Source: Streptomyces sp. NBC_00091
GTDB lineage: Bacteria > Actinomycetota > Actinomycetes > Streptomycetales > Streptomycetaceae
Reading direction: 5' to 3'
Assembly: GCF_026343185.1 (NCBI RefSeq)
Contig: NZ_JAPEMA010000001.1
Location: forward strand, 186,001 to 250,000
Length of the DNA: 64,000 nucleotides
Shown here: positions 41,029 to 55,181 of the stretch, piece by piece
Position numbering within the stretch: position 1 is the first letter of the stretch
Layout of the letters: every line of letters begins with the position of its first letter
The notes under the pieces: model-generated
What the model was told of the DNA's origin: nothing
What the model saw: only the letters and a program-made list of their open reading frames with translations
Databases searched by the model: none
Made by a program: the position numbers and the translations under genes

Positions 41029-41733
41029 TCACCGGTAGATGAGCAGTTCCCCCTCGGCCGCGCCCGCCAGTTCGTAGCGGGTCGCGACCAGCGGACGGCC
41101 GGAGTAGAGGCGGATCAGCGTCGCCGCGTCCCCGCGGAAGCGGGCGGCGGCCCGGCCGGCCACCTCGTTGCCCAGGACCAGCGGTCCCCCGTGGCCGCCG
41201 ATGTCGGCGACCAGCCGGGGGGTCTCCCGCTTGCGGCTGGCGGTGCGCAGCAGGGGCAGGGCGAGCGGCAGGCTGTCGCCGGCGTACGCCCCGGGCTCCC
41301 CGAACGCCTCGCGGACGTCGCCCGCGTGGATCCACTCCCCCAGCGCCACCGCGTCCAGCCTGCCGTCGCCGGCGGCGATGGCCGGGCCGGCCTCGGTGAG
41401 GCCGCGCTCCAGCTCGTCCACGATCCGGGGCACCGGCCAGTCCAGGCGCTCGGCCACGTCGGCGGCGTTGGCGGCGGGCAGGAAGACCCCTTCCTCCAGC
41501 CGGCCCTCGACGATCCGTACGAGGGCGGCCGCGCAGTGCGCGAGGACGTCCCGGGCGGTCCACCCGGGGCAGGCGGTGCGGAGCCCGTAGGCGGCCTGCG
41601 GCGTGCGGCGCAACAGCGGGATCAGCGCGTCCCGTTCGGTGCGCAGCAGCCGGTCCGGGAGCCAGGGGTCGCGCACCTCGGCGACGGCCTCCACGACGGC
41701 TTCCACGGTGTCCACGGTGTCCACGGTGTCCAC
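41029..41733 (-). CDS. Mycothiol-dependent maleylpyruvate isomerase-like protein
   Basis: 234-residue DinB/MDMPI-fold protein. CPGWTARDVLAHCAA and ALGEWIHAGDVREAFG match the metal-binding His positions of the mycothiol-dependent family; the C-terminal region resembles the MDMPI C-domain. The start codon is one of several GTGs in a DTVDTVDTV repeat encoded by a 9-bp tandem repeat. GTG 41733 lies five bases after the ahcY stop, suggesting coupling. As the last gene of the operon it may use mycothiol as cofactor in tailoring or detoxification. Confidence 0.8.
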   Translation of the reverse strand: MDTVDTVDTVEAVVEAVAEVRDPWLPDRLLRTERDALIPLLRRTPQAAYGLRTACPGWTARDVLAHCAAALVRIVEGRLEEGVFLPAANAADVAERLDWPVPRIVDELERGLTEAGPAIAAGDGRLDAVALGEWIHAGDVREAFGEPGAYAGDSLPLALPLLRTASRKRETPRLVADIGGHGGPLVLGNEVAGRAAARFRGDAATLIRLYSGRPLVATRYELAGAAEGELLIYR

Positions 41734-41738
41734 GGCCG

Positions 41739-43145
41739 TCAGTAGCGGTAGTGGTCGGGCTTGTACGGGCCCTCGACCGCGACGCCGATGTAGGCGGCCT
41801 GCTCCGGACGCAGGGTGGTGAGCCTGACCCCGAGGGCGTCCAGGTGGAGGCGGGCGACCTTCTCGTCGAGGTGCTTGGGCAGCACGTACACGTCGGTCGG
41901 GTACTCCGACGGCTTCGTGAACAGCTCGATCTGGGCCAGGGTCTGGTCCGCGAAGGAGTTCGACATGACGAAGGACGGGTGGCCGGTCGCGTTGCCCAGG
42001 TTGAGGAGGCGGCCCTCGGAGAGGACGATCAGGACCTTGCCGTCGGGGAACTTCCAGGTGTGGACCTGGGGCTTGACCTCGTCCTTGACGATGCCGTCGA
42101 TCTTGGCCAGGCCGGCCATGTCGATCTCGTTGTCGAAGTGGCCGATGTTGCCGACGATCGCCTGGTGCTTCATCTTGGCCATGTCCGAGGCCATGATGAT
42201 GTCCTTGTTGCCCGTCGTCGTGACGAAGATGTCCGCGATCTCCACGACATCGTCCAGGGTGGCGACCTGGTAGCCGTCCATCGCCGCCTGGAGGGCGCAG
42301 ATCGGGTCGATCTCCGTGACGATGACCCGCGCGCCCTGGCCGCGCAGGGACTCCGCGGAGCCCTTGCCGACGTCGCCGTAACCGCAGACCACCGCGACCT
42401 TGCCACCGATGAGGACGTCGGTGGCGCGGTTGATGCCGTCGATCAGGGAGTGGCGGCAGCCGTACTTGTTGTCGAACTTCGACTTGGTGACGGCGTCGTT
42501 CACATTGATCGCCGGGAAGAGGAGAGCGCCCGCCTGGTGCATCTCGTAGAGGCGGTGGACACCGGTGGTGGTCTCCTCCGTCACGCCGCGGATCTCCGAG
42601 GCCATCTGCGTCCAGTTCAGGGTGCTGCGCCCCAGCAGTTCGAGGACGAAGCCCATCTCCTCGTTGTCGGCGGTCGAGGGGTCGGGGACGGCCCCGGCCT
42701 TCTCGAACTCGACGCCCTTGTGGACGAGGAGGGTGGCGTCACCACCGTCGTCGAGGATCATGTTCGGGCCCACGTGTCCGGGCCAGGTCAGCGCCTGCTC
42801 GGTACACCACCAGTACTCCTCCAGCGTCTCGCCCTTCCAGGCGAAGACGGGGATGCCGGCGGCCGCGATCGCCGCCGCGGCGTGGTCCTGGGTCGAGTAG
42901 ATGTTGCAGGACACCCAGCGGACGTCCGCGCCGAGGGCGACCAGGGTCTCGATCAGCACGGCGGTCTGCACGGTCATGTGCAGGGAGCCGGTGATCCGGG
43001 CGCCGGCCAGCGGCTGCGCCTCGGCGTACTCCTCGCGGATCGACATCAGACCCGGCATCTCGTGCTCGGCCAGGGTGATCTCCTTGCGCCCGAAGGCGGC
43101 AAGGGAAAGGTCCGCGACCTTGAAGTCCGTGAACTCGGCAGGCAT
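41739..43145 (-). CDS. ahcY: S-adenosylhomocysteine hydrolase
   Basis: 468-residue NAD-dependent enzyme splitting SAH to adenosine and homocysteine, removing the inhibitor of methyltransferases. Hallmarks: ITGSLHMTVQTAVLIETL, SCNIYSTQDHAAAAIA, DAVTKSKFDNKYGCRHSLIDGINRATDV, VCGYGDVGKGSAESLRGQGA and the C-terminal PYKPDHYRY. ATG 43145 has AAGGAG. It follows metH by 35 bases in an operon with all other SAM-cycle genes. Confidence 0.98.
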   Translation of the reverse strand: MPAEFTDFKVADLSLAAFGRKEITLAEHEMPGLMSIREEYAEAQPLAGARITGSLHMTVQTAVLIETLVALGADVRWVSCNIYSTQDHAAAAIAAAGIPVFAWKGETLEEYWWCTEQALTWPGHVGPNMILDDGGDATLLVHKGVEFEKAGAVPDPSTADNEEMGFVLELLGRSTLNWTQMASEIRGVTEETTTGVHRLYEMHQAGALLFPAINVNDAVTKSKFDNKYGCRHSLIDGINRATDVLIGGKVAVVCGYGDVGKGSAESLRGQGARVIVTEIDPICALQAAMDGYQVATLDDVVEIADIFVTTTGNKDIIMASDMAKMKHQAIVGNIGHFDNEIDMAGLAKIDGIVKDEVKPQVHTWKFPDGKVLIVLSEGRLLNLGNATGHPSFVMSNSFADQTLAQIELFTKPSEYPTDVYVLPKHLDEKVARLHLDALGVRLTTLRPEQAAYIGVAVEGPYKPDHYRY

Positions 43146-53926: not shown

Positions 53927-53990
53927 CACGCGCCCCCCTTGACGTAGAGGAGTGGTTTCTCTGGCGTGAACCAATCTACGAATCAGCCCT

Positions 53991-55181
53991 TTATTTTGTC
54001 AACCCAAAAGAAGACCGCAGTGCCTGTTCGGTGTCCTGCCACAGGTCCTCCGGGTCCTCGATGCCGACCGACATCCGGACGAGGCCCGGACCTATCCCGG
54101 CGCGCGCCAACGCCCCTTCGTCCAGCTCCCGGTGGGAGGTGCTGGCAGGGTGCGTGACCAGCGTCTCCACCCCGCCCAGCGACAGCGCGAGCCGCGCCAG
54201 CCGCACCCCCTCGACGAAGGCGCGGCCCGCCTCCCGGCCGCCGTGCAGCTCGAAGGAGAGCAGCCCGCCGCCGCCCGAGAGCACCCTGCGGGCCATGGCG
54301 TACGAGGGGTGCGTTCCCAGCCACGGCCAGTGGACGGCCGCCACGGCGGGATGCGCCACCAGCCGCTCCGCGAGCAGGCCCGCGTTGGCGCAGTGCTCCC
54401 GGATCCGCAGCGGCAGCGTGGCGATCCCGCGCAGGGTCAGCCAGACGGCGAACGGGTCGGCGCTGGCTCCGAGTTCGACCGTGCGGGGCCAGACCTCCCG
54501 GCGCAGCGCGTCGTCCGCGAAGACGGCCGCGCCGCCCAGGACGTCGGAGTGCCCGGCGAGGTACTTGGTGGTGGAGTGGAGCACGATGTCGGCGCCGTGC
54601 TCGACGGGGCGGCACAGGACGGGTGAGGCCAGGGAGTTGTCCACGGCGCTGAGCACGCCGAGGCGCCGGGCCGCCGCCAGCAGACCGGGGAGGTCGGGGA
54701 CCTGCCCGGTGGGGTTGGCGATGGTCTCCAGCACGAGCAGCCGGGTGCGCGGCCCGGCGAGCGCCTCGAACTCCCCCACGTCGTCACCGCTGATGTAGTC
54801 GACCTCCACCCCGTAGCGCTCCTTCAGATCGCTCAGCGCCGCGTACGTCCCCCCGTACAGGCAGCGCTGCGCGATCACCTGGTCACCGGGGCGCAGCAGG
54901 GCGAGCAGGACCCCGCTGATGGCGCCCATCCCGGAGGCGAAGGCGATGGCCGAGGCCCCGCCCTCCAGGCCGGCGAGGGTGCGTTCCAGGGCTCGCACGG
55001 TGGGGTTGCCGCGGCGGCTGTACACGTAGTCGCCGTCGGGTCCGGCCATGGCCCGCGCCAGGTCGTCCGCCGAGTCGAAGGCGAAGGCGGAGGACTGGAC
55101 GAGCGGCACGGACAGCGGCCGGCTCGCGGGGACTTCGAGCTCGTGGGCCACGTGCACGGCCCGGGTGCGGATGTCCTTCAT
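53991..55181 (-). CDS. PLP-dependent transsulfuration-family enzyme
   Basis: 396-residue fold-type I PLP enzyme of the cystathionine gamma-synthase/lyase and O-acetylhomoserine sulfhydrylase family. YVYSRRGNPTVRALERTLAGLEGG, FASGMGAISGVLLALL, LETIANPTG, VDNSLASPVLCRP and the Schiff-base Lys in LHSTTKYLAGHSDVLGG; ending THPASTSH. It performs gamma- or beta-replacement or elimination on homoserine, cysteine or methionine derivatives. As first gene of the operon it may supply the amino acid precursor or recycle homocysteine. ATG 55181 has AAGGGAG. Confidence 0.92.
   Translation of the reverse strand: MKDIRTRAVHVAHELEVPASRPLSVPLVQSSAFAFDSADDLARAMAGPDGDYVYSRRGNPTVRALERTLAGLEGGASAIAFASGMGAISGVLLALLRPGDQVIAQRCLYGGTYAALSDLKERYGVEVDYISGDDVGEFEALAGPRTRLLVLETIANPTGQVPDLPGLLAAARRLGVLSAVDNSLASPVLCRPVEHGADIVLHSTTKYLAGHSDVLGGAAVFADDALRREVWPRTVELGASADPFAVWLTLRGIATLPLRIREHCANAGLLAERLVAHPAVAAVHWPWLGTHPSYAMARRVLSGGGGLLSFELHGGREAGRAFVEGVRLARLALSLGGVETLVTHPASTSHRELDEGALARAGIGPGLVRMSVGIEDPEDLWQDTEQALRSSFGLTK

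Follow-up and report, generated by a model that had tools for sequence, protein, structure and literature searches.

A Streptomyces gene cluster free of assembly-line modules that may convert a carrier-bound amino acid into an O-methyl nitronate

Introduction

What might a bacterium make with an operon that appears to load one amino acid onto a stand-alone carrier protein, to oxidize and methylate it, and to regenerate the methyl donor S-adenosylmethionine (SAM)? The question is raised by a 64,000-nt stretch of DNA from Streptomyces sp. NBC_00091 (assembly GCF_026343185.1, contig NZ_JAPEMA010000001.1, positions 186,001–250,000 of the forward strand), which we call the window. It is high in GC and its nearest relatives are Streptomyces, the ligase of the operon being 93% identical to that of S. 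lavendulae CCM 3239 and 95% identical to that of S. katrae. We propose, at what we judge to be an even chance, that the operon belongs to a likely natural-product cluster free of non-ribosomal peptide synthetases (NRPSs), in which a conserved core converts an amino acid held on the carrier, likely glycine, to an O-methyl nitronate whose methyl group would be supplied by a SAM cassette. The core consists of an amino acid:carrier ligase, the carrier, an oxygenase of AurF/CmlI fold and an LCM-type methyltransferase. The proposal draws on gene content, linkage, fold matches, motif losses and co-occurrence; the substrates, the product and the enzyme that would join its parts are predictions. The intact cluster family is present in about 6% (17/295) of the Streptomyces genomes sampled, and searches aimed at assembly lines may overlook clusters of this kind, with their likely reactive, N-oxidized chemistry and their own methyl supply.

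Results

Between positions 41029 and 55181, twelve open reading frames (ORFs) lie on the minus strand, separated by gaps of 1–76 nt or overlapping by 4 nt. In order of transcription they encode a pyridoxal phosphate (PLP) enzyme, a MaoC-like protein, two methyltransferases (MT1 and MT2), the AurF-like oxygenase, the ligase, a phosphopantetheinyl transferase (PPTase) in frame with the carrier, MetK, AdoK, MetH, AhcY and an MDMPI-like protein. An earlier note on this DNA had described such an operon, named these families and seen no NRPS or polyketide synthase (PKS) module in it. The layout is as described, every family was confirmed by Pfam and NCBIfam profiles, and the cluster ORFs that were scanned with Pfam yielded no NRPS or PKS domain. 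Against two relatives, H27-H1 and S. lavendulae, the ratio of nonsynonymous to synonymous substitution rates (dN/dS) is 0.10–0.45 for the operon genes and 0.04–0.45 for all listed cluster genes, one of which, asnB, was compared with H27-H1 only.

The presumed entry point of the pathway is a SerRS-like amino acid:carrier protein ligase (49634–50494). Its residues 39–275 match PDB 3mey (Bll0957), among others, at 94 bits, and it scores 131 bits on PRK07080, under the equivalog cut-off of 357. The SerRS-type core is present together with a Cys/Glu/Cys set (C109, E153 and C250) that is invariant in 19/19 aligned sequences and that we take to be the zinc site; 18 of the 120 relatives listed, out of 628, were aligned. 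Bll0957-type ligases thus belong to the same sequence family, the difference being that here the ligase is set beside an N-oxygenase and methyltransferases. Directly downstream lie an AcpS-type PPTase (49072–49632; PF01648, 39 bits; TIGR00556, 63 bits) and a carrier protein with a DSL serine (48823–49071). The earlier note had taken these two for a fusion. They do share one frame, but a single gene is not what the sequence favours: the carrier is probably encoded separately, likely translated from the in-frame ATG at 49071, because AAGGAG stands 7 nt before that ATG and because PPTase and carrier occupy separate frames in 56 of the 63 relatives' loci that could be scored for it (one frame in 7; a further 17 of the 80 loci were not scorable). 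A second family of loci with ligase plus carrier has genes for a DAO-type oxidase and a KAS III-like protein and lacks AurF (L045, L046, L049, L051, L053–L055, L057 and L063).

The predicted AurF/CmlI-fold diiron N-oxygenase (50528–51421) matches PF11583 (AurF) at 126 bits. When the AurF alignment was used as a profile against the PDB, it returned weak R2-like matches only, so that fold comparison was needed; the comparison showed both the AurF/CmlI fold and the metal-ligand pattern. MT1 (52541–53380; PF04072, 156 bits; TIGR00027, 218 bits against a cut-off of 94) is an LCM-family methyltransferase and our candidate nitronate O-methyltransferase. It is found near AurF in 68/71 loci and in 0/9 loci without AurF. 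MT2 (51498–52544) joins an Rv2258c-like winged helix to a class I methyltransferase domain (PF21320 and PF13847). The remaining members of this part are a MaoC-like hydratase (53420–53926; PF01575, 56 bits) with a D-x4-H motif, and a Cys/Met-family PLP enzyme (53991–55181; PF01053, 390 bits), for which the methionine gamma-lyase model TIGR01328 is nearest, at 354 bits and below its cut-off of 550. At the far end of the operon stands the MDMPI/DinB-like, putatively mycothiol-dependent enzyme (41029–41733; TIGR03083, 82.9 bits, cut-off 50).

The grouping of these genes is beyond chance, since the core is kept across relatives. We read the best 80 of the 346 stretches that matched the ligase alignment; they are partly dependent (L035 and L074 share a stretch of the same contig), and genes lost to contig edges were scored as unknown, or cut. 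Where the ligase is at least 68% identical (46/80 loci), AurF and MT2 occur in all 46, MT1 and MaoC in 45 (one cut each), the PLP enzyme in 44 (one absent, one cut), metK in 43 (three absent), adoK in 37 (one absent, eight cut), metH in 34 (four absent, eight cut), ahcY in 22 (four absent, 20 cut) and MDMPI in 22 (one absent, 23 cut). A neighbouring gene for a major facilitator superfamily (MFS) protein is present in 37 (eight absent, one cut). The search for co-occurrence of ligase, oxygenase and SAM-cycle genes that the earlier note had proposed therefore comes out well for AurF and, in 43/46, for metK; however, metK, metH and ahcY are all absent from L035, L040 and L042, two of which (L035 and L040) retain adoK.

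All four SAM-cycle genes stand together in the operon: metK (47618–48826), with three S-AdoMet_synt domains; adoK (46633–47616), a PfkB-family adenosine kinase matching that of M. tuberculosis (PDB 4o1g) at 343 bits; metH (43181–46636), with five domains of cobalamin-dependent methionine synthase; and ahcY (41739–43145; PF05221, 500 bits), for hydrolysis of S-adenosylhomocysteine (SAH). The presence of AhcY points to SAH, and a role for SAM as aminocarboxypropyl donor was rejected on this ground. A further full copy of ahcY was found in G001, G002, G003 and G007, and further full copies of metK in G001, G002 and G004, with fragments only in G003. These four genes recur, their order unchanged, in another region of G001 (L093–L094) and of G008 (L095–L096), where one more ORF separates metH from ahcY in G008, and G004 holds a SAM-gene set without a metH match. 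Because the SAM genes are missing from some loci, and because the same set is found elsewhere in G001 and G008, the cassette looks like a movable supply module and not like a signature of this chemistry. The pathway sketched in the earlier note thus stands as far as the gene content goes, which fits NRPS-independent loading, N-oxidation and methylation with methyl-donor genes in the same string, whereas its tie between the SAM genes and the chemistry does not. By eye, the second cassette of G001 lies beside ORFs resembling glycosyltransferases and a ketosynthase.

The cluster is larger than the operon. Whereas its right boundary at 55181, as first drawn, is kept, the left one had left out a second arm that extends to about 33.5 kb. 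This arm comprises a LuxR-type regulator (33552–34604, plus strand; Pfam GerE, 36.8 bits), a second MshA, or inositol-phosphate GlcNAc transferase paralog (35035–36369, minus), a MetRS-like protein related to PyrN (36511–38085, minus), an AsnB-like glutamine amidotransferase (38259–40067, minus; assigned by Pfam and alignment) and a PIG-L family protein, a predicted N-acetylglucosaminyl deacetylase (40254–40958, plus; PF02585, 95 bits). The gene string of L035 and L040 runs on from the operon through PIG-L, AsnB, MetRS-like protein and MshA. Among the regions of nine relatives (G001, G002, G003, G005, G006, G017, G232, G303 and G304), MshA, MetRS-like protein, PIG-L and LuxR are present in 9/9 and AsnB in 8/9. 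MshA scores 538.6 bits on TIGR03449 (cut-off 462.5) and 366 bits on PDB 3c48, the MshA of C. glutamicum, with which it aligns through the substrate-contact positions. We rejected it as the housekeeping copy, as 7/8 genomes hold another MshA at 56–61% identity. The PIG-L protein keeps AHPDD and HPDH motifs in 6/6 aligned sequences, has a dN/dS of 0.04–0.05, and among solved structures is closest to LnmX (5bmo, 106 bits), with diacetylchitobiose deacetylases also matching.

Parts of the left arm have changed in the lineage of the window. Its AsnB reads SGGLAS where eight other genomes have SGGLDS, and lacks the GKR[AV]L lysine that seven others show; our motif script did not match the SGG motif in L042 or the GKR motif in L098 and L099. 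On these motif changes alone AsnB is probably inactive in this strain; a clearly raised dN/dS was looked for and rejected (0.27–0.31 in comparisons with the window versus 0.21–0.30 among relatives). Several relatives carry SDR and/or PrpF-like genes between AsnB and the MetRS-like gene, for which there is no room between the neighbours in the window or in S. lavendulae, and no AsnB match was found in the S. lavendulae CCM 3239 region. Together with SGGLAS, these losses suggest that part of the left arm is probably decaying here. A short tandem repeat with a 9-nt step lies between the MetRS-like and MshA genes (36464–36499).

The MetRS-like protein resembles the PyrN-type hydrazine synthases of pyrazomycin in its MetRS-like domain, and probably descends from hydrazine synthases. 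Its HIGH motif and zinc cysteines are kept and its dN/dS is 0.19–0.24, but the KMSKS-like loop is absent from the window copy and from all 19 rows of the aligned Streptomyces clade, while the three aligned cluster copies from Kitasatospora/ST-888 retain it. To judge from this loss, the protein probably no longer makes adenylates in Streptomyces. A LuxR homolog lies near the gene in 14/14 loci without a cupin or lysine hydroxylase (not counting L035 and L040, which duplicate L087 and L088 in truncated form), and in L100, L101, L108 and L110 the pair adjoins in genomes that have neither a ligase nor an AurF match; in L108 and L110 both histidines of HIGH are gone, as is the loop. Such pairs offer a test case for a biosynthetic synthetase becoming the non-catalytic partner of a regulator. 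No tblastn match to the zinc cupin or the lysine N-hydroxylase was found in the window or the cluster loci, whereas one or both occur in nine hydrazine-type loci, and we rejected a hydrazine or diazo route.

The two arms were compared across a sample of 295 Streptomyces genomes, used alike for ligase, AurF and MetRS-like protein. Ligase (at least 74% identity, next match 63%) and AurF (at least 81%, next 66%) occur in an identical set of 17 genomes, and the MetRS-like protein (at least 65%, next 52%) in those 17 plus G188 and G268. The arms lie within 17 kb of each other in five of the 17, 27–42 kb apart in eight and on separate contigs in four. Co-occurrence that persists across such insertions argues that the two arms belong to one pathway, and gives a concrete reason to study them jointly.

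Discussion

In the pathway that we propose, the PPTase would arm the carrier, the ligase would load glycine or alanine onto it, the diiron enzyme would oxidize the amine to the nitronate level and MT1 would methylate the nitronate oxygen, while AhcY, AdoK, MetH and MetK would return SAH to SAM. MT2, MaoC and the PLP enzyme may prepare or modify a partner. The MshA paralog and PIG-L would together provide the backbone of mycothiol, glucosaminyl-inositol, which might serve as acceptor, as thiol partner or for protection. For the MetRS-like protein we favour a possible role in sensing or self-protection, because a LuxR gene is near it in every such locus read and because adenylate formation has probably been lost. 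Taken to its end, this would give a mycothiol-like glucosaminyl-inositol with an O-methyl nitronate warhead, a new antibiotic scaffold assembled with neither NRPS nor PKS, and the MetRS-like protein, its adenylation loop gone, would act as a sensor or immunity protein linked to LuxR, one that other Streptomyces retain even without the biosynthetic genes; we offer this as speculation and consider it improbable in full.

The core resembles known logic with a different loading enzyme. Two papers on enteromycin-class compounds (PMC9967187, PMC11035981) describe carrier-bound glycine, a diiron oxygenase and an O-methyltransferase, and the same succession of carrier-bound amino acid, oxygenase and O-methyltransferase links our core to enteromycin carboxamide and to the akazaoxime/A-76356 cluster. 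For akazaoxime, the proposal is that glycine is loaded on an NRPS and then extended by NRPS/PKS, whereas here the ligase stands alone and no NRPS/PKS domain accompanies it; the SAM cycle and the MshA/PIG-L arm are also extra. Further literature was drawn on as well (PMC2922099, PMC12154687, PMC8664883). The earlier note did not recognize the set as a described cluster. That holds for the combined core and second arm, of which we found no description in the open-access literature searched, which is not proof of absence, but the logic of the core resembles that of the enteromycin class. The second arm is likewise close to mycothiol biosynthesis in its MshA equivalog, PIG-L family protein, class I synthetase-like protein and MDMPI, and differs in that a MetRS-like protein replaces the CysRS-like MshC and that PIG-L is no MshB equivalog. 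No acetyltransferase turned up among the genes scanned, and no search was aimed at MshD. A valanimycin-like azoxy route needs a tRNA-type SerRS and a transferase; neither was seen among the genes scanned, and the route was rejected.

Several observations weigh against the proposed pathway. No condensation domain or acyltransferase that could link the acyl unit to the scaffold was found among the scanned genes, and the two candidates for that linkage, the MetRS-like protein and AsnB, both have altered catalytic motifs in this strain. PIG-L scores 31.9 bits on the MshB model (cut-off 224) and 27.7 on that of Mca (cut-off 277). G188 and G268 carry the MetRS-like gene without ligase or AurF. The same core, with ligases of 53–62% identity, occurs in seven genomes without a MetRS-like match (a count that leaves out L056), and the MetRS-like gene is thus dispensable for the core. 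The identity thresholds behind the count of 17 genomes were chosen after the gaps in the lists had been seen. In G007 the metK of the cluster is the only one found in the assembly and may not be a mere pathway copy. Finally, enzymes of the AurF fold have other products as well: AurF and CmlI form nitro groups, and Dob3 forms diazo groups.

Of the readings that compete with ours, the one we take most seriously, while still thinking it unlikely, is that the MetRS-like protein remains a ligase, which would couple an amino acid with glucosaminyl-inositol, much as MshC attaches cysteine, in a manner independent of KMSKS. MshA and PIG-L are grouped with a class I synthetase-like protein as mycothiol logic would have it, the HIGH motif and zinc cysteines persist under the dN/dS given above, and the Kitasatospora/ST-888 copies keep the loop; yet every aligned row of the Streptomyces clade has lost it, the gene stays near LuxR in the four genomes that lack ligase and AurF matches, and K458A inactivates PyrN, the equation of K458 with the KMSKS lysine being our own reading. 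It also seems rather improbable that the oxygenase halts at another N-oxidation state (an oxime, a nitro group or a unit denitrified to nitrite), so that the core would yield an oxime or release nitrite and not an O-methyl nitronate. Akazaoxime, an oxime, and A-76356 are indeed proposed to share a single cluster whose enzymes are of these types, and a nitronate in S. achromogenes can undergo either O-methylation or denitrification; what speaks against this reading here is the pairing of MT1 with AurF and the finding of no nitronate monooxygenase among the window genes scanned with Pfam.

The lincomycin pathway provides a model for sulfur donation by mycothiol. On that model, MDMPI would couple mycothiol to an electrophilic intermediate, PIG-L would act as an Mca-type amidase, the PLP enzyme would cleave the C–S bond and MT2 would S-methylate, with the extra MshA boosting mycothiol and a methylthio compound as product. 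The cluster has a family candidate for all four roles, and SAM regeneration fits repeated methylation, but PIG-L falls far below the Mca cut-off and is closer to BshB2, LnmX and diacetylchitobiose deacetylases, and the reactions of Cys/Met PLP enzymes are many; we regard such sulfur donation as doubtful. The formation of an O-methyl nitronate on the carrier remains our preferred account.

Boundary and neighbouring features

Between the MFS and PLP genes, 3' of the former, lies an intrinsic-terminator-like hairpin (55254–55296, minus strand) of 19 perfect base pairs followed by a T-run. The folding energy of the gap is -67.3 kcal/mol, where shuffles average -49.8 (z -4.6), and in 27/37 relatives the corresponding gap contains a hairpin of 12 bp or more, which makes an operon boundary at 55181 sensible and the MFS gene probably a separate or attenuated unit. 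Riboswitch control was rejected, as no Rfam family reached its gathering score in the window and the weak mraW and ftsZ-DE matches (55253–55318) overlap the hairpin; no tRNA was found in the window either. Four 17-nt direct repeats (CGGGTACGGAAACCGGG and variants; 55202–55258, minus strand) between hairpin and operon start were not seen in the eight relatives' gaps inspected.

The DHA2-type MFS protein (55323–56768, minus strand; TIGR00711, 218.5 bits, cut-off 230) is a neighbour and a possible exporter, not specific to the cluster: at E 1e-130 it has matches in 43/295 genomes, 26 of them without the ligase and AurF subfamily of the cluster, and a role as cluster-specific immunity was rejected on that count. 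Upstream of it are two near-palindromic, operator-like repeats, CATACCCC..GGGGTA (56789–56845); a pattern search of this promoter gave 0 matches, with a pattern spacing that did not fit these repeats, and is uninformative. To the left of the cluster, a methyltransferase gene (31850–32770) has dN/dS of 0.32 and 0.54 in the comparisons with H27-H1 and S. lavendulae, and a copper-type ATPase with a CsoR-like ORF was recognized by eye at 26988–29537, the ATPase lying beside the left arm also in L088, L090, L098 and L100. To the right, an EF-G-like protein (56977–59100; TIGR00484, 781 bits; Otr(A) model, 316 bits, below cut-off) adjoins the MFS gene both in the window and in S. lavendulae, and an ORF of 1277 aa (60132–63965) contains pentapeptide repeats, the best stretch being C-terminal.

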